Source: Betaproteobacteria bacterium
GTDB lineage: Bacteria > Pseudomonadota > Gammaproteobacteria > Burkholderiales > Rhodocyclaceae
Assembly (NCBI GenBank): GCA_020621865.1
Contig: JAHRYW010000002.1
Location: forward strand, 74,778-138,777
Direction: 5' to 3'
DNA: 64,000 nt
Each line of letters opens with the position of its first letter. The first letter of the stretch is position 1. The position numbers were made by a program, and so were the translations under genes. The notes below the pieces were generated by a model, which worked only from the letters and a program-made list of their open reading frames with translations, was not told where the DNA came from and did no database searches. Of the stretch, positions 8,891 to 61,138 are shown piece after piece.

Positions 8891-10233
8891 TCGGCCGGAA
8901 TGCTACGGTCGGCGCCAGAATTTGCCGGTTTTTTGCGGCGCCGGCGTTTCTTTTTATCGCCAGCCTGTTCGGGCATCAGCATTTCGGCGCGCTGGTCGCC
9001 GTCAACGCTCTGGAAGCGCGTCCACCAGTCGGCCACTTCCATGTCGAGTTCGCCGGACTGGGCGCGCAGGACCAGGAAGTCGTAGCCGGCGCGGAAGCGC
9101 GGCTGTTCGAGCAGGCCGTAGGGGCGCTTGCCGGAGCGCTGTTCGAAGCGCGGTTGCAGGGCCCAGATGTCCTTGATATCGCCGGCGATGCGCCGGGTGA
9201 TGGCGAGCTTTTCGCCCTGCACGTCGAGCACCGTGTCCATCGCCTTGTAGAGCGCCGGAATCTTCGGCTCGCCGGCGCCCTTGAGCTTTTCCCAGTGAGC
9301 CAGCACTTCGTGCCAGAGCAGCGTGGCGAACAGGAAGCCGGGCGAAACGCCCTTGTCCTGGCGGATGCGGTCGTCGGTATTTTTCAACGAGAGCATGACG
9401 AACTTCTCACCCATCGGCTGTTCGAGAATGACGTCGAGCAGCGGCAACAGGCCGTGGTGCAGGCCTTCGTCGCGCAGCTGGGTGATGCACTTGACCGAAT
9501 GCCCGGAGGTCAGCAGCTTCAGCATTTCGTCGAACAGGCGGGCGGCCGGGACGTTTTCGAGCAGTTCGGCCATTTCGCGGATTGGCTTCCTGGCTTCCGG
9601 GTCGATGATCAGCCCGAGCTTGGCGGCCAGGCGGACGGCGCGCAGCATGCGTACCGGGTCTTCGCGGTAGCGGGCGCGCGGTTCGCCGATCATGCGCAGG
9701 GTCTTCTGCTTGAGATCGCCGACGCCGTGGTGATAGTCGATGACCGCCTCGGTGGCCGGGTCGTAGTACAGCGCGTTGGCCGTGAAGTCGCGGCGGGCGG
9801 CGTCCTCGGCGTGGCTGCCGAAAACGTTGTCGTGCAGCACGCGGCCGTGTTCGTCGGTCTTCGTCTTCTCGTCCAGGGTGCCGCGGAAGGTGGTCACCTC
9901 CAGGGTTTCCTGGCCCATCATGACGTGCACGATCTGGAAGCGGCGGCCGATGATGCGCGAGCGGCGGAAGGCGCGGCGCACTTCTTCCGGCGTCGCGTCG
10001 GTGGCGATGTCGAAATCCTTGGGCTCGGCGCCGATCAGCAGGTCGCGCACGGCGCCGCCGACGACGTAGGCCTTGAAGCCATGGCCCTGCAGGGTTTCGC
10101 AGACGCGCCGGCTGCCGGAACTGAGGCGGTCGCGGGTGATGCCGTGGCTGGAGACGGGAATGACGGCCGGTTCGTGCTTGCTGGCCTTGGGTTTTTTGCC
10201 GCTGAAAACGCGGGAAATGAATTTGCGGATCAC
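8887..10233 (-). CDS. pcnB: Poly(A) polymerase I
   Basis: AYVVGGAVRDLLIG...PKDFDIATDA; basic C-terminal tail. Confidence 0.95.
   Translation of the reverse strand: MIRKFISRVFSGKKPKASKHEPAVIPVSSHGITRDRLSSGSRRVCETLQGHGFKAYVVGGAVRDLLIGAEPKDFDIATDATPEEVRRAFRRSRIIGRRFQIVHVMMGQETLEVTTFRGTLDEKTKTDEHGRVLHDNVFGSHAEDAARRDFTANALYYDPATEAVIDYHHGVGDLKQKTLRMIGEPRARYREDPVRMLRAVRLAAKLGLIIDPEARKPIREMAELLENVPAARLFDEMLKLLTSGHSVKCITQLRDEGLHHGLLPLLDVILEQPMGEKFVMLSLKNTDDRIRQDKGVSPGFLFATLLWHEVLAHWEKLKGAGEPKIPALYKAMDTVLDVQGEKLAITRRIAGDIKDIWALQPRFEQRSGKRPYGLLEQPRFRAGYDFLVLRAQSGELDMEVADWWTRFQSVDGDQRAEMLMPEQAGDKKKRRRRKKPANSGADRSIPAE
8899..8937 (+). repeat. Dispersed repeat copy A (short, partly diverged), antisense to the pcnB C-terminal tail
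   Basis: AATGCTACGGTCGGCGCCAGAATTTGCCGGTTTTTTGC. Confidence 0.7.
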
Positions 10234-11849: not shown

Positions 11850-12518
11850 TCAGCGCAGGCTGATGATGGCCCAGCCGTGTTCGCCAGCGTGGGCGCGCAG
11901 TTTGTCGTCCGGGTCGACGGCCACTGGCGTCGTCACTTTCTGCATCAGCGGCAGGTCGTTGTGCGAGTCGCTGTAAAAATAACTGTTGGCGAAGCTGCCC
12001 CACCACAGGCCGAGCGATTCGAGCCAGGCTTCGACGCGGGTGATCTTGCCGCCCTGGAAGGAGGGCGTGCCGGTCGGTTTTCCTGAAAATGCGCCATTTT
12101 TGGCATCGACCGTAGCAATCGTGCCGATCAGGTGCGGAATGCCGAATTCGCGGGCGATCGGGCCGGTCACGAAGCAGTTGGTGGCGGTCACGATGGCGCA
12201 CAGGTCGCCGGCCGCCAGGTGTTTTTGGACCAGCGCGCGCGATGGCTCGGTCATGATCGGACGGATGTGGCGGTCGAGGTATTCGCGGTGCCAGGCATCG
12301 AGTTCGGCGCGCGGGTGACGGGCCAGCGGGGCAAGCTGGAAGGCGAGGAACTCGTAGATGTCCAGCGTGCCGGCCTTGTATTGCTCGTAAAACTGGATGT
12401 TCTTCGCTTCCTGCAGCTCGCGGTCGACGACGCCCTTGCTGATCAGGAATTGCGCCCATTCAAAGTCGGAGTCGCCGGCGAGCAGGGTGTTGTCGAGGTC
12501 AAAAAGGGCAAGATTCAT
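11850..12518 (-). CDS. HAD-IB family phosphatase (SerB-like)
   Basis: LFDLDNTLLAGDSDFEW, SYFYSDSHNDLPLM motifs. Confidence 0.9.
   Translation of the reverse strand: MNLALFDLDNTLLAGDSDFEWAQFLISKGVVDRELQEAKNIQFYEQYKAGTLDIYEFLAFQLAPLARHPRAELDAWHREYLDRHIRPIMTEPSRALVQKHLAAGDLCAIVTATNCFVTGPIAREFGIPHLIGTIATVDAKNGAFSGKPTGTPSFQGGKITRVEAWLESLGLWWGSFANSYFYSDSHNDLPLMQKVTTPVAVDPDDKLRAHAGEHGWAIISLR
12084..12119 (-). repeat. Dispersed repeat copy B (short, diverged), in frame in HAD phosphatase
   Basis: Revcomp ATTGCTACGGTCGATGCCAAAAATGGCGCATTTTC encoding IATVDAKNGAF; same frame as copies G and J. Confidence 0.55.
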
Positions 12519-16958: not shown

Positions 16959-17592
16959 ATGGCTACGGCAGGTCGCGGCTTTTGCCTGCGGCCTGTTGTT
17001 GCTGAACGCCGCCCCGGCAGTCTGGGCGGCGGGTAAGAAAGTTTCTGCCAAGCAAGTATCGGCCAAGCTGGCGCATGCCAGGCCGGCCAAGAAGGCGGCG
17101 TTCCGTAGCGGGCGCCCGGCCTTGCCGGCCACGGAATTCGGGCCGGCCGACCTGATCGACGACGATCTTCCCGGCCTGCGTGGCCAGGCCAGTTTCTACG
17201 GTAACGGTTTTCAGGGCCGAAGGACGGCCACCGGCGAGCGTTTCGACGTCCGTCAATTCACGGCGGCCAGCAATCGCTTCCCCTTGGGGACGCTGCTTGC
17301 CGTCCGACGCCTGGACAAGGATCTGTGCGCCATCGTCAAGGTTAACGACCGCATGCATGGCAAGCATCGCAAGCGCATCATCGATGTCTCGCGCAGTGCC
17401 GCGGAATATCTCGGCATGCTGCGCGCCGGCGTCGTCTTCGTCAGTGTTGCGCCGGTCAGGGGCGCCGGGCCGAATGCCTGCGCAACGGCCTTCGAGGCAG
17501 CTCCGGGCGACGAATCCTATCCCCCAGGGGGACTTCCTTCGGGGCGCGGTCAGGCGGAAAAAATGCCCAAAATCGAATTCGGCAGCGACTGA
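16930..17592 (+). CDS. RlpA-like double-psi beta-barrel (septal ring lytic transglycosylase family) protein
   Basis: [63 protein letters not shown]; start codon uncertain. Confidence 0.85.
17512..17580 (+). repeat. Dispersed repeat copy C, long subtype 1 (G-rich insert), encodes RlpA-like C-terminus
   Basis: GAATCCTATCCCCCAGGGGGACTTCCTTCGGGGCGCGGTCAGGCGGAAAAAATGCCCAAAATCGAATTC. Confidence 0.85.
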
Positions 17593-18839: not shown

Positions 18840-21800
18840 GGATTTCCGATCTGTGCATCAAGCGGCCGGTCTTTGCGACCGTGCTGTCGCTGGTCATCAT
18901 GCTGCTCGGCATCGTCTCCTACACCCGGCTGCCGGTGCGCGAGTATCCGAAGATCGACGAGCCGGTGGTCACCGTCGATACGACTTATCGCGGCGCCTCG
19001 GCCGAGATCATCGAGTCGCAGGTCAGCAAGCCGCTGGAGGATTCGCTGGCCGGCATCGAGGGGGTGGAAGTGATCACTTCCATTTCGCGTGCCGAGAACA
19101 GCCAGATTTCCGTGCGCTTCAAGCTGGAGCGCCCGCCGGAAGCAGCGGCGGCCGATGTCCGCGACCGCGTCTCGCGGGTCCGCAAGAAGCTGCCGGACAG
19201 CGTCGACGAGCCGGTGATCGCCAAGGTCGAGGCCGATGCCAACCCGGTTGTCTGGATCGCTTTTTCCTCCGACCAGCATTCGGCGCTGGAAGTCACCGAC
19301 ATCGCCAGCCGCATCGTCAAGCCACGCCTGACCACGCTGCCCGGGGCGGCCGACGTGCGCGTCTTCGGCGAGCGCAAGTTCGCCATGCGCATCTGGCTCG
19401 ACAAGCAGCGCCTGGCGGCCTACCAGCTGACCCCGGCCGACGTCGAGGAGGCGCTGAAGACGCAGAACGTCGAGGTGCCGGCCGGGCGCATCGAGAGCAG
19501 CCAGCGCGAGTTCTCGGTGGTGGCCAATACCGATCTGAAGACGCCGGAGGAGTTCGGGGCGATCATCGTCCGGACGGTCGGCGCCTATCCGGTCCGCATC
19601 CGCGATATCGGCCGCGTTGAAGTGGGGCCGGCTTCGGAGCGCAGTTCGGTGCGCTTCAACGGGCGCTCGGCGGTGGGGCTCGGCGTCATCAAGCAGGCGA
19701 CGGCCAATCCGCTGGAGCTGTCGAAGGCCCTGCGCGCCCAGCTGCCGAGCATCACCGGCGAACTGCCGGCCGGCATGCAGGCCAAGATCGCCTACGATTC
19801 CAGCGTCTTCATCGACCGTTCGATCCAGTCGGTGTTCAAGACCATCGCCGAAGCGATCCTGCTGGTGCTGGCGATCATTTTCTTCTTCCTGCGCAACCTG
19901 CGGGCGACGCTGATCCCGCTGGTCACCATCCCGGTCTCGCTGGTCGGCGCCTTCGGCATCATGTTTGCGCTCGGCTTCACGATCAACACGCTGACCCTGC
20001 TTGCCATGGTGCTGGCCATCGGCCTGGTCGTCGATGACGCCATCGTCGTGCTGGAGAACATCTTCCGCCACATCGAGGAGGGCATGCCGCGGATGCAGGC
20101 CGCCTTGCAGGGCTCCAAGGAAATCGGCTTTGCTGTCGTCGCGATGACGCTGACCCTGGCCGCCGTCTATGCCCCGGTCGCCTTCATGACCGGGCGCACT
20201 GGCAAACTGTTCATCGAGTTCGCGCTGACCCTGGCCGGCGCCGTGCTGGTTTCCGGCTTCGTCGCCCTGACCCTGTCGCCGATGATGTGCTCGCTGCTGC
20301 TTCGCCACGAGGAAAAGCACAGCAAGGGTTTCCTGCTGGTCGAGCGCTTCCTGGACAATTTGAATTTTGGTTATAAAAAGGTGCTGACCGTAGCATTGAA
20401 CCGGCGCTGGATCGTCCTCGTCGCCTTCGTGCTCGTCGCCGGCTCCTGCGTCGTGCTGCTCAAGTCGCTGAAGTCCGAACTGGCGCCGATCGAGGATCGC
20501 GGCATCGTGCTCGGTGCCTTCGTCGGTCCGGATGGTGCGACGCTCGAATACAGCGACAAGTACGCCCGGCAGATGGAAAGCATCTACAGCCAGACCAAGG
20601 ACGTCGAGCGCTACTTCGTCGTTTCCGGCAATCCGGTGGTGAACCAGGGCACCTCCTTCCTCGGCCTGACCGACTGGAACCAGCGCGACCGACGCTCGCC
20701 GGAGATCGCCAAGGAACTGGCGCCCAAATTCGCCGCCATTCCCGGCGTGCTGGCCTTCGCCATCACGCCGCCCTCGCTCGGCCAAAGCCCGCGCGAGCGG
20801 CCGATCAACTTCGTGATCGTCACCTCGGCCAGCTACCAGGAGCTGCAGCAGCTGACCAGCCAGTTCCTGGTCGAACTGGCCAAGAATCCCGGCCTGGCCA
20901 ATGTCGACACCGACCTCAAGCTGAACAAGCCGGAGCTGTCGATCGAGGTCAAGCGCGACAAGGCGGCCGACCTCGGCGTGCCGGTCGAGACGGTCGGGCG
21001 GACGCTGGAAACGCTGCTCGGCGGCCGCCAGGTCACCCGCTTCAAGCGCGACGGCGAGCAGTACGACGTGATCGTCCAGGTCGCCGACATCGACCGCACC
21101 AAGCCCGACGACATCCGCGACATCTATGCCCGTGGCCGCGACGGGAGCATGATCTCGCTGGACAATCTGGTCGCCGTGCAGGAAACCGTCGCCCCGCGCG
21201 AGCTGAACCACTTCGGCCAGCGCCGGGCGGTCAGCATCACCGCCAACCTGACGCCCGGCTACTCGATGGGCGAGGCGCTGACTTACATGGACGGCGTCGC
21301 CAACCAGTTGCTCAAGCCGGGCTACGCCGTCGACTACAACGGCCAGTCGCGCGAATTCCGCCAATCGTCGTCGTCGCTGGCCTTCACCTTCGGGCTGGCG
21401 CTGGCCTTCATCTACCTGGTGCTGGCAGCACAGTTCGAGAGCTTCCGCGACCCGCTGATCATCATGCTGACCGTGCCGCTGTCGATGGCCGGCGCCCTGC
21501 TCGCGCTGTGGCTGACCAACGGCACACTCAACGTCTACAGCCAGATCGGCCTGGTCACGCTGGTCGGCCTGATCACCAAGCACGGCATCCTGATCGTCGA
21601 ATTCGCCAACCAGTTGCAGGAGAAGGGCATGGCGATCAAGGAGGCGGTCATCGAATCGGCCTTCCTGCGCCTGCGGCCGATCCTGATGACGACCGGCGCC
21701 ATGGTGCTCGGCGCCGTGCCGCTGGCGCTGGCCACCGGCGCGGGCGCCGAATCCCGCCAGCAGATTGGCTGGGTCATCGTCGGCGGCCTGCTGCTCGGCA

Positions 21801-21918: not shown

Positions 21919-21988
21919 TTTTTTCGATTTTGGCCGTTTTTTGCCGCCGACCCTAGGGCCAGCCTTTGTTTCTATGGTCGTAGCGTTT
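21919..21988 (-). repeat. Dispersed repeat copy D, long subtype 2 (CCCTAGGG insert), between convergent RND permease and miaA
   Basis: Revcomp AACGCTACGACCATAGAAACAAAGGCTGGCCCTAGGGTCGGCGGCAAAAAACGGCCAAAATCGAAA. Confidence 0.85.
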
Positions 21989-28144: not shown

Positions 28145-28213
28145 CAATGCTATCCTCCAAGGGGACTTCCTTCGGGGCGCGGTCGGCCGGTTTTTTTACC
28201 CAAAATTAAAAAA
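28145..28213 (+). repeat. Dispersed repeat copy E, long subtype 1, between convergent genes
   Basis: AATGCTATCCTCCAAGGGGACTTCCTTCGGGGCGCGGTCGGCCGGTTTTTTTACCCAAAATTAAAAAACC. Confidence 0.88.
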
Positions 28214-28230
28214 CCGGTGCACCGCCGCTG

Positions 28231-32463: not shown

Positions 32464-32509
32464 GAATGCTACGGTCGGCCTCGAAAATCAGCCAAAATCA
32501 AAAAATTCA
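32464..32509 (+). repeat. Dispersed repeat copy F, short subtype, at 3' end of DinB-like gene
   Basis: AATGCTACGGTCGGCCTCGAAAATCAGCCAAAATCAAAAAATTC. Confidence 0.88.
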
Positions 32510-34707: not shown

Positions 34708-36531
34708 CTACTGCCCGCGCAAGAACAGCTTGTCGAGCTGCTCCATCGTCAGCTCCGTCCACGTCGGTCGGCCGTGGTTGCATTGGCCGGCGCGTTCGGT
34801 TTCTTCCATTTGGCGGAGTAGGGCGTTCATCTCCGGCACCGTCAGTTGGCGGCGGGCGCGGACGGCGCCGTGACAGGCCATGGTGGCGAGCAGTTCGTTG
34901 CGGCGGGCGGTGGCGAGCTGGGTGATGCCGTGTTCGCGCAGTTCGGTGATCAGCGATTTGGCCAGCGCGGCGGGGTCGCCGCTTTGCAATAGCGCAGGGA
35001 CGGCGCGCACGCCCAACTGGTTGGGGCCGAGCGGGGCGATCTGGAAGCCGAGGTCGGCCAGCGCTTCGGCGTGTTCTTCGACGGCGGCGATGTCGAGCGG
35101 GTCGGCGGCGAAGACGGCCGGGATGAGCAGGGCCTGGGTGGCGATCTGGCGGTGGTCGAAAGCGGCCTTCAGTTTTTCGTAGAGGATGCGCTCGTGCGCG
35201 GCGTGCATGTCGATCAGGATCAGGCCGCGGGCGTTCTGGGCGAGGATGTAGATGCCGTGCAGCTGGGCCAGCGCGTAGCCGAGCGGCGGGCCGTCGCGGT
35301 CAGCGGTTTCGATGGGCTGGAATTGCGGGGCGACTTCGGGGCGAGGGGCGGGCGACTGGCCGATGTCTTGCGCGGCACGGGCGAAGGCGAGGTAGGCCGC
35401 GGCGGCCGGTTCGGCGACGCCGAGGCTGGCCTGGTGGCGCAGCGGCGGGGCGTATTCGAAATTTGGCTGATTTTTCGGGGTGACCGTAGCATTTGAGTAT
35501 TCGGCGTTCGCTGTGCCGCGTTCAACCAGCGCCGGGGCCGCTTCGGCCTGCACCGGCGCGGCCAGCGTGCGCTGGATGGCGTGGAAGACGAACTGGTGCA
35601 TGGCGCGCGAGTCGCGGAAGCGGACTTCGGTCTTGGCCGGGTGCACATTGACGTCGACCAGCGCCGGGTCGATGTTGACGAATAGGCAGACGGCCGGCTG
35701 GCGGCTGCCGTGCAGTACATCGCGGTAGGCTTCGCGCAGGGCGTGGCTGATGATCTTGTCGCGCACGAAGCGGCCGTTGACGAAGACGTACTGGCCGTCC
35801 TTGGCGTCGGTGGCGCGGGTCGGGTCGATGGCGAAGCCGGCGATGGCCAGCGCGCCGGCGCCGGCCTCGACGGCGCGGGCGGCGCCAAGGAAGTCGTCGC
35901 CGAGGATGTCGGCGATGCGCCGCGGTGCGTCGGCCGGGGCGAGCTGGAACAGGTTGCGGCCATTGTGGGTCAGGCTGATCGCGACATCCGGGCGGGTCAG
36001 GGCCAGGCGCTTGACGGCGTCGGCGCAGTGGGCGAACTCGGTGCTTTCCGACTTCAGGAATTTGCGCCGGGCCGGGGTGTTGAAATAAAGGTCGCGCATC
36101 TCGACCACGGTGCCGGCCATCAGGGCGGCAGGTTCAGGTTCGGCGCCCGGCTCGCCGCGCAGCTTCCAGGCGTGGGTGGCGCCGCGTTCACGGCTGGTGA
36201 TGCTCAGGCGGGCGACCGAGGCGACCGAGGCCAGCGCCTCGCCGCGAAAGCCGAGGGTGCCGACGCGCTCCAGGTCGTCGAGGCTGGCGATCTTGGAGGT
36301 GGCATGGCGGGTCAGGGCCAGGGCCAGCTGGTCCTTGGCGATGCCGCAGCCGTCGTCGGTAATCCGGATCAGCTTGACGCCGCCTTCCTCCAGATGCACC
36401 TGGATCGCCTTGCTGCCGGCATCGAGGCTGTTTTCGAGGAGTTCCTTGAGGACGGAGGCAGGTCTTTCGACCACTTCGCCAGCGGCAATCTGGCTGATCA
36501 GCAGGTCGGGGAGGCGGGCAATGGTCGGCAT
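34708..36531 (-). CDS. mutL: DNA mismatch repair protein MutL
   Basis: IARLPDLLISQIAAGEVVERPASVLKELLENSLDAGS; DDGCGI; GFRGEAL. Confidence 0.97.
   Translation of the reverse strand: MPTIARLPDLLISQIAAGEVVERPASVLKELLENSLDAGSKAIQVHLEEGGVKLIRITDDGCGIAKDQLALALTRHATSKIASLDDLERVGTLGFRGEALASVASVARLSITSRERGATHAWKLRGEPGAEPEPAALMAGTVVEMRDLYFNTPARRKFLKSESTEFAHCADAVKRLALTRPDVAISLTHNGRNLFQLAPADAPRRIADILGDDFLGAARAVEAGAGALAIAGFAIDPTRATDAKDGQYVFVNGRFVRDKIISHALREAYRDVLHGSRQPAVCLFVNIDPALVDVNVHPAKTEVRFRDSRAMHQFVFHAIQRTLAAPVQAEAAPALVERGTANAEYSNATVTPKNQPNFEYAPPLRHQASLGVAEPAAAAYLAFARAAQDIGQSPAPRPEVAPQFQPIETADRDGPPLGYALAQLHGIYILAQNARGLILIDMHAAHERILYEKLKAAFDHRQIATQALLIPAVFAADPLDIAAVEEHAEALADLGFQIAPLGPNQLGVRAVPALLQSGDPAALAKSLITELREHGITQLATARRNELLATMACHGAVRARRQLTVPEMNALLRQMEETERAGQCNHGRPTWTELTMEQLDKLFLRGQ
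35454..35494 (-). repeat. Dispersed repeat copy G, short subtype, in frame inside mutL linker
   Basis: Revcomp AAATGCTACGGTCACCCCGAAAAATCAGCCAAATTTCGAAT encoding NATVTPKNQPNFEY. Confidence 0.88.
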
Positions 36532-36605
36532 GCCGGGATTATCCCAGATTGCTCCTTGATAGCGGCAGGCCATCGTCGCCATAGGACTAACTCACTGGCA
36601 ACTGA

Positions 36606-39728: not shown

Positions 39729-39770
39729 AATGCTACGGTCGGCCCCAAAAAAGGCCAAAAATTGAAATTC
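39729..39770 (+). repeat. Dispersed repeat copy H, short subtype, near consensus, between convergent genes
   Basis: AATGCTACGGTCGGCCCCAAAAAAGGCCAAAAATTGAAATTC. Confidence 0.92.
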
Positions 39771-43269: not shown

Positions 43270-44265
43270 ATGCCCCTTGCCATCGTCGCCGCGCTCGCCG
43301 CCTCGCTCGGCATCCACGTCGCCGCCCTGTTCGGGCCGGACGTCGAGCTGTTCGGCGGCGCCGACGAACCGGTGACGCTGCGCGCCGAGCTGCAGCCACC
43401 GCCGGCGGCACCGAAGGCGCCGGCCGAACCCAAGCCGGCCGCCAAACCGCGCCCGAAAACAGCAAAAACCGCACCCCTGGTTACGGCCAAGGCATCACCG
43501 GAAGCACCGGTCGTCCCGGCCGCGCCGGAGCCGGATTCCGAAATTGAGCAAAAAAACGAGCCGACCCTAGGGCCAGCCGTTGATTCTGTGGTCGTAGCAT
43601 CGGCGCCCAGCGCGCCGCCGGAGCCGGCCCAACCCCTGCTGCCGGCCAGTGGCACCATCCGCTACGCCATCTACATGGGGACCCGAGGCTTTCAGATCGG
43701 TCGCGCCGAACACAACTGGGAATTCACTGCCGACGGCCGCTACCGGCTGACCGGGATGACCGAAACAGTCGGCCTGGCCGCGCTGTTCAAGACCATCCGC
43801 TTCGAGAACGAAAGCAGCGGCCGGCTGGTCGCCGGCGGTCTGCAACCCGAGTCGTACCGGACCCGCAAGAACGGCCAGGATGCCAACGAAAACGCCGATT
43901 TCGACTGGACGGCCGGTGAGGTGCGCCTGTCGCGCAGCGGCAAGGTCCAGCCGATTGCCCCCGGCGCCCAGGACATCCTGTCGCTGAATTACCAGCTCGC
44001 CTATCTGCCGCGACCGGAAGTCGGAGCGACCGTCGGCGTCATCACCGGCAAGAAATACGAGCGTCACGAGCTCGACTCTCTGGGCGAAGAAGAACTTGCT
44101 ACACCGGCCGGCCATTTCCGTACCCTGCATCTGCGGGCGCTGGGTAGCAACGTGACCGAAATCTGGATTGCACTCGACCGCCACCGTCTGCCGGTTAAAA
44201 TCCGATTTACCGACAAGAAAGGCGACGTTTACGAACAAGTCGCCACCGAAATAGGAATGCCATGA
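43270..44265 (+). CDS. DUF3108 domain protein with Pro/Ala-rich linker
   Basis: IYMGTRGFQIGRAEHNWEFTADGRYRLTGMTETVG...DILSLNYQLAYLP. Confidence 0.82.
   Translation: MPLAIVAALAASLGIHVAALFGPDVELFGGADEPVTLRAELQPPPAAPKAPAEPKPAAKPRPKTAKTAPLVTAKASPEAPVVPAAPEPDSEIEQKNEPTLGPAVDSVVVASAPSAPPEPAQPLLPASGTIRYAIYMGTRGFQIGRAEHNWEFTADGRYRLTGMTETVGLAALFKTIRFENESSGRLVAGGLQPESYRTRKNGQDANENADFDWTAGEVRLSRSGKVQPIAPGAQDILSLNYQLAYLPRPEVGATVGVITGKKYERHELDSLGEEELATPAGHFRTLHLRALGSNVTEIWIALDRHRLPVKIRFTDKKGDVYEQVATEIGMP
43534..43601 (-). repeat. Dispersed repeat copy I, long subtype 2, inside the DUF3108 gene linker
   Basis: Revcomp GATGCTACGACCACAGAATCAACGGCTGGCCCTAGGGTCGGCTCGTTTTTTTGCTCAATTTCGGAATC, matches copy D. 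Confidence 0.88.
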
Positions 44266-52431: not shown

Positions 52432-53034
52432 ATGATCCCGTGCTACAAAACACGGCGAGCCGACATGCCCTTGGACCCCCTGCAAGACCCCGAGTTTCTC
52501 ACAAGCCTGCGCCGCGACATGCTGCGTTTCGCCGAAATCCAGCTGCGCGACAAGGCGCAGGCCGAGGATGCCGTGCAGGAAGCGCTGGCCGGCGCCCTGC
52601 AGGGGCGTGAAAAATTTGCCTCGCGCGCCTCGCTGCGCACCTGGGTGCTGTCCATCCTGAAAAACAAGATCATCGACGTGTTGCGCCGCAAGGGACGCGA
52701 GAATGCTACGGTCGAGCCGGAAAACGGCCCAAATTTGAATTCCTGGTTTGACGACCGCGAACACTGGACCGAGGATACCCGCCCGTCGGAGTGGCAGTCG
52801 CCGCAGGAAGCCATGGAAAGCAAGCAGTTCTGGGAGGTTTTCGAGGCTTGCCTGTACCGCCTGCCGGAAGCCAGCGCCCGGATCTTTACGATGCGCGAGG
52901 TGCTCGGTTTCGACACCGATGAGATCTGCGCGACCCTCGGCATCACCAGCAACAACTGTTTCGTCCAGCTGCATCGGGCCCGGCTGGCCCTGCGCGCCTG
53001 CCTCGGCGCCAACTGGTTCGGCGAAGCGGCCTGA
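52432..53034 (+). CDS. ECF-family RNA polymerase sigma factor
   Basis: AEDAVQEALAGALQGREKFASRASLRTWVLSILKNKIIDVLRR and FWEVFEACLYRLPEASARIFTMREVLGFDTDEICATLGITSNNCFVQLHRARLALRACL; start may be 52465. Confidence 0.93.
   Translation: MIPCYKTRRADMPLDPLQDPEFLTSLRRDMLRFAEIQLRDKAQAEDAVQEALAGALQGREKFASRASLRTWVLSILKNKIIDVLRRKGRENATVEPENGPNLNSWFDDREHWTEDTRPSEWQSPQEAMESKQFWEVFEACLYRLPEASARIFTMREVLGFDTDEICATLGITSNNCFVQLHRARLALRACLGANWFGEAA
52702..52742 (+). repeat. Dispersed repeat copy J, short subtype, in frame in ECF sigma inter-domain linker
   Basis: AATGCTACGGTCGAGCCGGAAAACGGCCCAAATTTGAATTC encoding NATVEPENGPNLNS. Confidence 0.88.
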
Positions 53035-54830: not shown

Positions 54831-54849
54831 GACAGCACCTCGGCGTTTT

Positions 54850-54885
54850 GAATTCTGGCCATTTATCGGGGTGACCGTGGCATTT
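54850..54885 (-). repeat. Dispersed repeat copy K, short subtype, upstream of PQQ dehydrogenase
   Basis: Revcomp AAATGCCACGGTCACCCCGATAAATGGCCAGAATTC. Confidence 0.8.
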
Positions 54886-61095: not shown

Positions 61096-61138
61096 TTATT
61101 TCAATTTTGGCCAAAATAACCGGCCGACCCTAGCATTT
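61095..61138 (-). repeat. Dispersed repeat copy L, short subtype, between convergent dut and pntB
   Basis: Revcomp AAATGCTAGGGTCGGCCGGTTATTTTGGCCAAAATTGAAATAAT. Confidence 0.88.

Follow-up and report, generated by a model that had tools for sequence, protein, structure and literature searches.

A motif repeated across the genome and lodged in an ECF sigma factor linker is a probable DNA uptake sequence of the Azonexus/Dechloromonas lineage

We analyzed a 64,000-nucleotide stretch of betaproteobacterial DNA (the window), in which the linker of an ECF sigma factor gene holds one of 13 copies of a 42-bp motif. We consider it likely, with a probability of roughly three in four, that this motif is a DNA uptake sequence of the Azonexus/Dechloromonas lineage, which would be the third lineage with such signals. 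Abundance, a short core combined with AT-rich tracts, dialects, and an origin by substitution are all traits of uptake sequences, and we therefore favor this reading. To our knowledge, sequence-specific DNA uptake has been described only in Neisseriaceae and Pasteurellaceae. Our literature search found no paper joining uptake sequences with Dechloromonas or Rhodocyclaceae, and the single match for Azonexus was an entry in a reference list.

The ECF sigma factor gene (52432..53034, + strand; NF008892 / TIGR02943) encodes 200 aa, with Pfam sigma region 2 at aa 24-89 and sigma region 4 at aa 137-187. Between both domains, the native linker holds the uptake-signal-like motif (52702..52743, + strand; 48 bits), whose full 42-bp sequence is AATGCTACGGTCGAGCCGGAAAACGGCCCAAATTTGAATTCC. 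Positions 52702-52742 read AATGCTACGGTCGAGCCGGAAAACGGCCCAAATTTGAAT and translate in frame to NATVEPENGPNLN. The core of this copy is AATGCTACGGTCG (52702..52714, + strand), and no pair of orthologous sites shared with the congener G125 differs in the inner CGGTC. An earlier note, made from the sequence alone, had reported a repeat at 52702 in this linker, and its sequence, frame, and peptide are all correct. It had also pointed to a second copy in MutL; that copy is real, shares the codon phase of the ECF copy, and encodes NATVTPKNQPNFEY, compared to NATVEPENGPNLN in the ECF gene.

The motif is abundant across the source genome (G000), whose assembly spans 2.9 Mb and is about 75% complete. The 13-mer AATGCTACGGTCG occurs 201 times in the assembly and 0 times in the reversed control, and AATGCNACNGT occurs 7 times in the window, where 0.22 copies are expected. 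A 42-bp weight matrix built from 834 kb of this genome scored 139 sites there at more than 16 bits, whereas the reversed sequence held no match above 14 bits; with this matrix, the ECF site scores 47-48 bits. Matrix and site statistics rest on these 834 kb, 400 kb of G125, and 370 kb of a further congener, G130. Because the reversed controls are near zero, we ruled out a chance word. Motif density is approximately 1 per 4-7 kb, with a copy in this genome roughly every 6 kb. Copies of a strict pattern reach approximately 630 in congeners, and the 10-mer GCTACGGTCG occurs 446 times in G130 and 391 times in G134 (controls 43 and 39).

The motif consists of the core AATGCTACGGTCGGC, four G/C positions, a six-base A/T tract (W6, positions 18-23), and GGCC-like bases, followed by a five-base A/T tract (W5, positions 29-33), YG, and AAAWW (positions 36-40), with three phased A/T tracts after the core. 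Positions of the W and S classes vary freely between A and T or between G and C, respectively. Within the W tracts, TpA steps are avoided (observed/expected 16/81, 1/23, 10/35, and 2/23), which, given that A and T are interchangeable there, is more indicative of DNA shape than of a copied word. We also considered an RNA hairpin element. No Rfam family matched in the window at the gathering score, and hairpin covariation was not significant (best z of 2.9 among ten registers), leading us to reject this candidate; some single copies can pair.

Related genomes carry the motif in several dialects. G125 lacks the expansion of the 13-mer, and a 400-kb stretch of its genome holds 97 sites that have the same tail and another core, WTTCCACGGTCAACCGG, the core dialect being TTCCACGGTCAACCGG. 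Other core dialects are TTTGACGGTC in G012 and GCTGCGGTC in G003, and a GCGGTC form is found in many congeners. Across 18 orthologous, colinear pairs of sites shared with G125, CGGTC shows 0/90 mismatches, a conservation inflated by the selection of pairs by score. In the same pairs, positions 0-6 and 12-17 differ at 35-41%, compared to 19-24% in the flanks, and the substitutions at these outer bases run one way (A>T 10, T>C 10, G>A 8, and G>A 8). By the strict pattern, with ACGGTC and GCGGTC forms both counted, at least 100 copies are present in 31 of 77 congeners and 20 or fewer in 27 of 77, with controls of 0-5 per strand. On a MutL tree, 14 of the 15 genomes with more than 100 ACGGTC-type copies fall in one clade of 19 genomes. 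In the sampled genomes of other genera of the family, counts of the tail pattern are no higher than the control.

Our gene calls come from a codon-score heuristic, so counts of coding and intergenic sites are approximate: by these rough calls, 62 of 140 sites lie within genes and 59 lie between genes, in a genome where approximately 85% of the DNA is coding. Stop-free frames dominate among the intragenic sites, with 25 sites in the sense NATV frame, 8 in the sense ECYGR frame, 15 antisense, of which several form signal-peptide cores, and 12 in another antisense frame. The earlier note had proposed that the repeat yields a characteristic peptide. NATV is indeed the commonest frame, and further sites in this frame sit in unrelated proteins, but 37 of the 62 intragenic sites lie in another frame or on the other strand. 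Antisense copies at gene starts encode the cores of signal peptides, e.g., FALFLLPTVAFA and FGLFFGLTVAFA (G000 C3:244700, C4:242366, C4:50938, and C4:48169).

Motif orientation is near even, both in the whole genome (91/110) and in G125 (308/320). Contig C4 alone is biased (30 to 53); in a 400-kb stretch of G125 with a constant sign of GC skew, the orientation is 55/47. Known polar motifs of chromosomes, KOPS and Chi among them, show a strand bias that follows replication, and we rejected a motif of this type given the lack of a consistent orientation bias. On C4 and in G125, sites are spaced more evenly than chance placement would give; this does not hold for C3, which has two motif-free stretches of 52-54 kb with a GC content of 0.55-0.56 (G000:C3:150241-204049 and C3:302589-354716, L038-L048). 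The first begins near dnaA/dnaN/gyrB and is probably acquired DNA, given its recombinases and type I restriction system; transposase-like genes are also present. The motif is absent from low-GC islands. In another congener (G122:C1), we observed inverted motif pairs 24 bp apart, e.g., 616362/616386, 655374/655398, and 1042284/1042308. These pairs consist of ACGGTCGACCG with A/T tracts between and look like Neisseria terminators, in which uptake sequences are paired.

Sites bound by an abundant protein of the chromosome, such as a nucleoid-associated or segregation factor co-evolving with its sites, would also fit the A-tract architecture, the genome-wide spread, the fairly even spacing, and the turnover of dialects. 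We regard this as unlikely: the orientation is near even, unlike that of KOPS and Chi, the architecture is close to that of the Pasteurellaceae USS, and we know of no process by which such a protein would rewrite its sites in the hundreds from one sister species to another, something that biased uptake would do. We likewise give only a small chance to the motif being the target of an undescribed genome-wide system (e.g., a protein-guided gene-conversion drive or a chromosome-organizing factor) under which hundreds of sites take on a new dialect between one sister species and another, rather than a competence signal.

The 13 sites in the window lie in several contexts. Intergenic copies lie at 32465..32506 (+ strand, 50 bits), 39729..39770 (+ strand, 61 bits, near consensus), 54843..54884 (- strand, 42 bits), and 61096..61137 (- strand, 52 bits, core GCTAGGGTC), and a copy at 12078..12119 (- strand, 37 bits), with no called gene over it, has an orthologous G125 site in the other dialect. 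Within genes, besides the ECF copy, one copy lies antisense near the 3' end of its gene (8899..8940, + strand, 24 bits), one lies in a large gene (20356..20397, - strand), and one lies in the MutL linker in the reading frame of the ECF copy (35452..35493, - strand, 55 bits; mutL gene 34708..36582, - strand). The four remaining copies are long forms. The first (17540..17581, + strand, 31 bits; whole form 17513-17581) has a 27-bp hairpin-like insert between GCTA and CGGTC. Two others have no called gene: one at 21919..21960 (- strand, 39 bits; whole form 21919-21984) with the CGACCATAGAAACAAAGGCTGGCCCTA type of insert and one at 28173..28214 (+ strand, 24 bits; whole form 28146-28214) with the TCCTCCAAGGGGACTTCCTTCGGGGCG type. 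The last lies antisense in a gene (43533..43574, - strand, 19 bits; whole form 43533-43598). Overall, long forms are a minority, accounting for a few per cent of sites, and their 27-bp insert, placed between GCTA and CGGTC, is one of two unrelated sequences, TCCTCCAAGGGGACTTCCTTCGGGGCG and CGACCATAGAAACAAAGGCTGGCCCTA. At site 426554, G130 has an insert of the 27-bp type and G000 has the short form.

Comparisons with related genomes indicate how the sites originated. In the ECF orthologs of 25 congeners, most of them motif-poor, the linker is essentially colinear with that of the source genome and differs by an excess of 0-3 codons; it reads NVVADVENDDDLNAYF in the congener G048, NATVNPENDENLQGYF in G125, which uses the other core dialect, and NATVEPENGPNLNSWF in this genome. 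MutL is likewise colinear with near, motif-poor relatives (EYSNSVVTPANRPNYEYAPPL in G048 versus EYSNATVTPKNQPNFEYAPPL; the G048 region can also be given as NSVVTPANRPNYEYAPPL, colinear). The G125 gene at the window site starting at 20356 lacks the motif and aligns colinearly without a gap. A gap of at least 20 bases in the relative was found in 0 of 43 alignments through motif sites (27 to G125 and 16 to G130). Given these essentially colinear orthologs in motif-poor genomes, the sequence comparisons indicate that the motif arose in situ, by substitutions in existing sequence. The earlier note had stated that this element altered the sigma factor gene; the insertion that this implies is contradicted by the colinear ECF and MutL linkers and the 43 alignments.

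The same evidence bears on a small mobile repeat, of the Rickettsia palindromic element or MITE type, that transposes in frame into genes. Rickettsia palindromic elements are regarded as extra sequence inserted in genes. They resemble the motif in that a repeated peptide is encoded within unrelated genes, and they differ from it in that nothing is inserted here. Hundreds of near-identical copies, some of them in frame within genes, and the element-like appearance of the long forms would suit such a repeat. However, we rejected mobile insertion because the ECF and MutL orthologs are colinear in motif-poor congeners and none of the 43 alignments reveals an empty site with a gap of at least 20 nt. 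In addition, S and W positions are free within their class, unlike what descent from a master copy would leave, hairpin covariation is not significant, and the same positions hold different dialects in different species. The mobile-repeat explanation is therefore largely refuted, and we rate it very improbable.

Across 26 orthologs, the motif score at the ECF linker correlates with the genome-wide abundance of the motif (Spearman 0.61, p ~0.001; a raw correlation that ignores kinship and counts ACGGTC and GCGGTC forms). The linker scores at least 13 in 10 of 11 genomes with more than 100 ACGGTC-type motifs, and the median of the other genomes is approximately -8. Exceptions include G012, a motif-rich genome without a site at the ECF linker. 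That the ECF linker merely resembles by chance a repeat that is real elsewhere would agree with G012 and with the Asn/Glu-rich native linker, whose codons partly supply the A-tracts, but it is hard to credit for a site of 48 bits, when no reversed-control match exceeds 14 bits in 834 kb and the linker score separates motif-rich genomes from others as described above. We also rejected a conserved functional ECF motif, because genomes that lack the motif also lack the peptide, and linker length is nearly constant; the case that the earlier note had named against its own reading, a motif conserved in this ECF group in organisms without the repeat, was not seen.

For the sigma factor itself, the consequences appear small. 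Glu and Asn were already frequent in the native linker, whose Glu-Asn and Asn-Leu-Asn codons supply part of the A-tracts. Any effect on the ECF gene is limited to substitutions within a variable, Asn/Glu-rich linker. In this tolerant region, a few residues may have changed under the influence of the motif, and nothing suggests a changed sigma function.

Among the machinery genes searched, comEC and those for GspH/FimT pilins, none tracks the motif. ComEC is present in all 17 congeners searched, motif-rich and motif-poor alike. GspH/FimT pilins are found in 72 of 77 genomes regardless of motif count, a distribution with no power to discriminate, and we rejected the identification of a receptor by co-distribution. 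Because comEC is interrupted twice in this assembly, the lineage may recently have lost competence, or the assembly may be at fault. We observed split comEC genes in G000 (C11, L266 4416-8054), G002 (C33, L267/L268), and G057 (C1, L269/L270), with approximately 2.4, 34, and 22 kb of intervening DNA, respectively. The splits fall within or beside the stretch GDQKAI...TGTTHLMSISGLH; in G000, the second break is near codon 666, and a gene for a large serine recombinase is nearby. In this genus, mobile DNA may target comEC.

Beyond the abundance, architecture, dialects, and distribution of the motif, its in-situ origin, its absence from islands, and the presence of comEC in congeners, all of which the sequences show, we infer uptake specificity, a receptor, and a drive that together would operate as follows. 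A putative pilus-associated DNA receptor would bind the core, and the phased A-tracts would give the DNA a bent or rigid shape that eases its entry. Kin DNA that bears the motif would then be taken up preferentially, with the motif acting as a tag for self-recognition. When a point mutation happened to create or strengthen a site, the surrounding DNA would be taken up and recombined more often, and sites would accumulate in place at any position whose local sequence allows it, i.e., in gene linkers, signal peptides, and intergenic DNA. If the preference of the receptor drifts, hundreds of sites would follow, producing clade dialects. Within the ECF linker, natively rich in Asn and Glu, the motif would have developed from existing sequence in a stop-free frame.

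Several observations weigh against the uptake reading: the density of the motif is below the approximately 1 per kb reported for USS and DUS, long forms with 27-bp inserts are not predicted for an uptake motif, contig C4 has its orientation bias of 30 to 53, the invariance of CGGTC owes something to the choice of pairs by score, and neither machinery gene follows the motif, with GspH/FimT pilins widespread regardless of motif count and comEC present in motif-poor congeners as well and interrupted twice in this assembly. If the uptake reading is true, this third lineage would combine USS-like anatomy with several dialects in one genus and many sites open to individual comparison between close species, and the origin and change of uptake specificity, long debated, would become directly testable. 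For annotators, our results carry a caution that a peptide common to unrelated genes need not mean a mobile element or a protein function.

Among known systems, the closest likeness is to the USS of Pasteurellaceae, which are not insertions and all consist of a core plus AT-rich segments (Redfield et al., PMC1626085). Like USS, the motif has hundreds of copies, a short core followed by AT-rich segments, no strict strand bias, both genic and intergenic sites, an origin by substitution, and clade dialects that alter the outer bases of the core (PMC1626085, PMC12616744). The two USS clade dialects, Hin-type AAGTGCGGT and Apl-type ACAAGCGGT, have the inner GCGGT in common and are discriminated in uptake (PMC1626085); the constant inner part here is CGGTC, and some congeners even use GCGGTC. 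The AT tracts of USS are predicted to be rigid and slightly bent (PMC7811141). Unlike USS, the motif belongs to a betaproteobacterial genus, has a different core, a lower density, and three tracts rather than two AT-rich segments, with the tracts starting approximately 8 bp after the core, and its uptake is putative. The DUS of Neisseriaceae, which have dialects and intergenic inverted pairs (PMC3630211), are also genome-wide repeats with species dialects in a betaproteobacterial lineage, and the G122 pairs 24 bp apart resemble their inverted pairs. DUS, however, are 10-12 bp words without AT flanks, whose receptor is ComP; the motif described here has AT flanks and an unrelated core.
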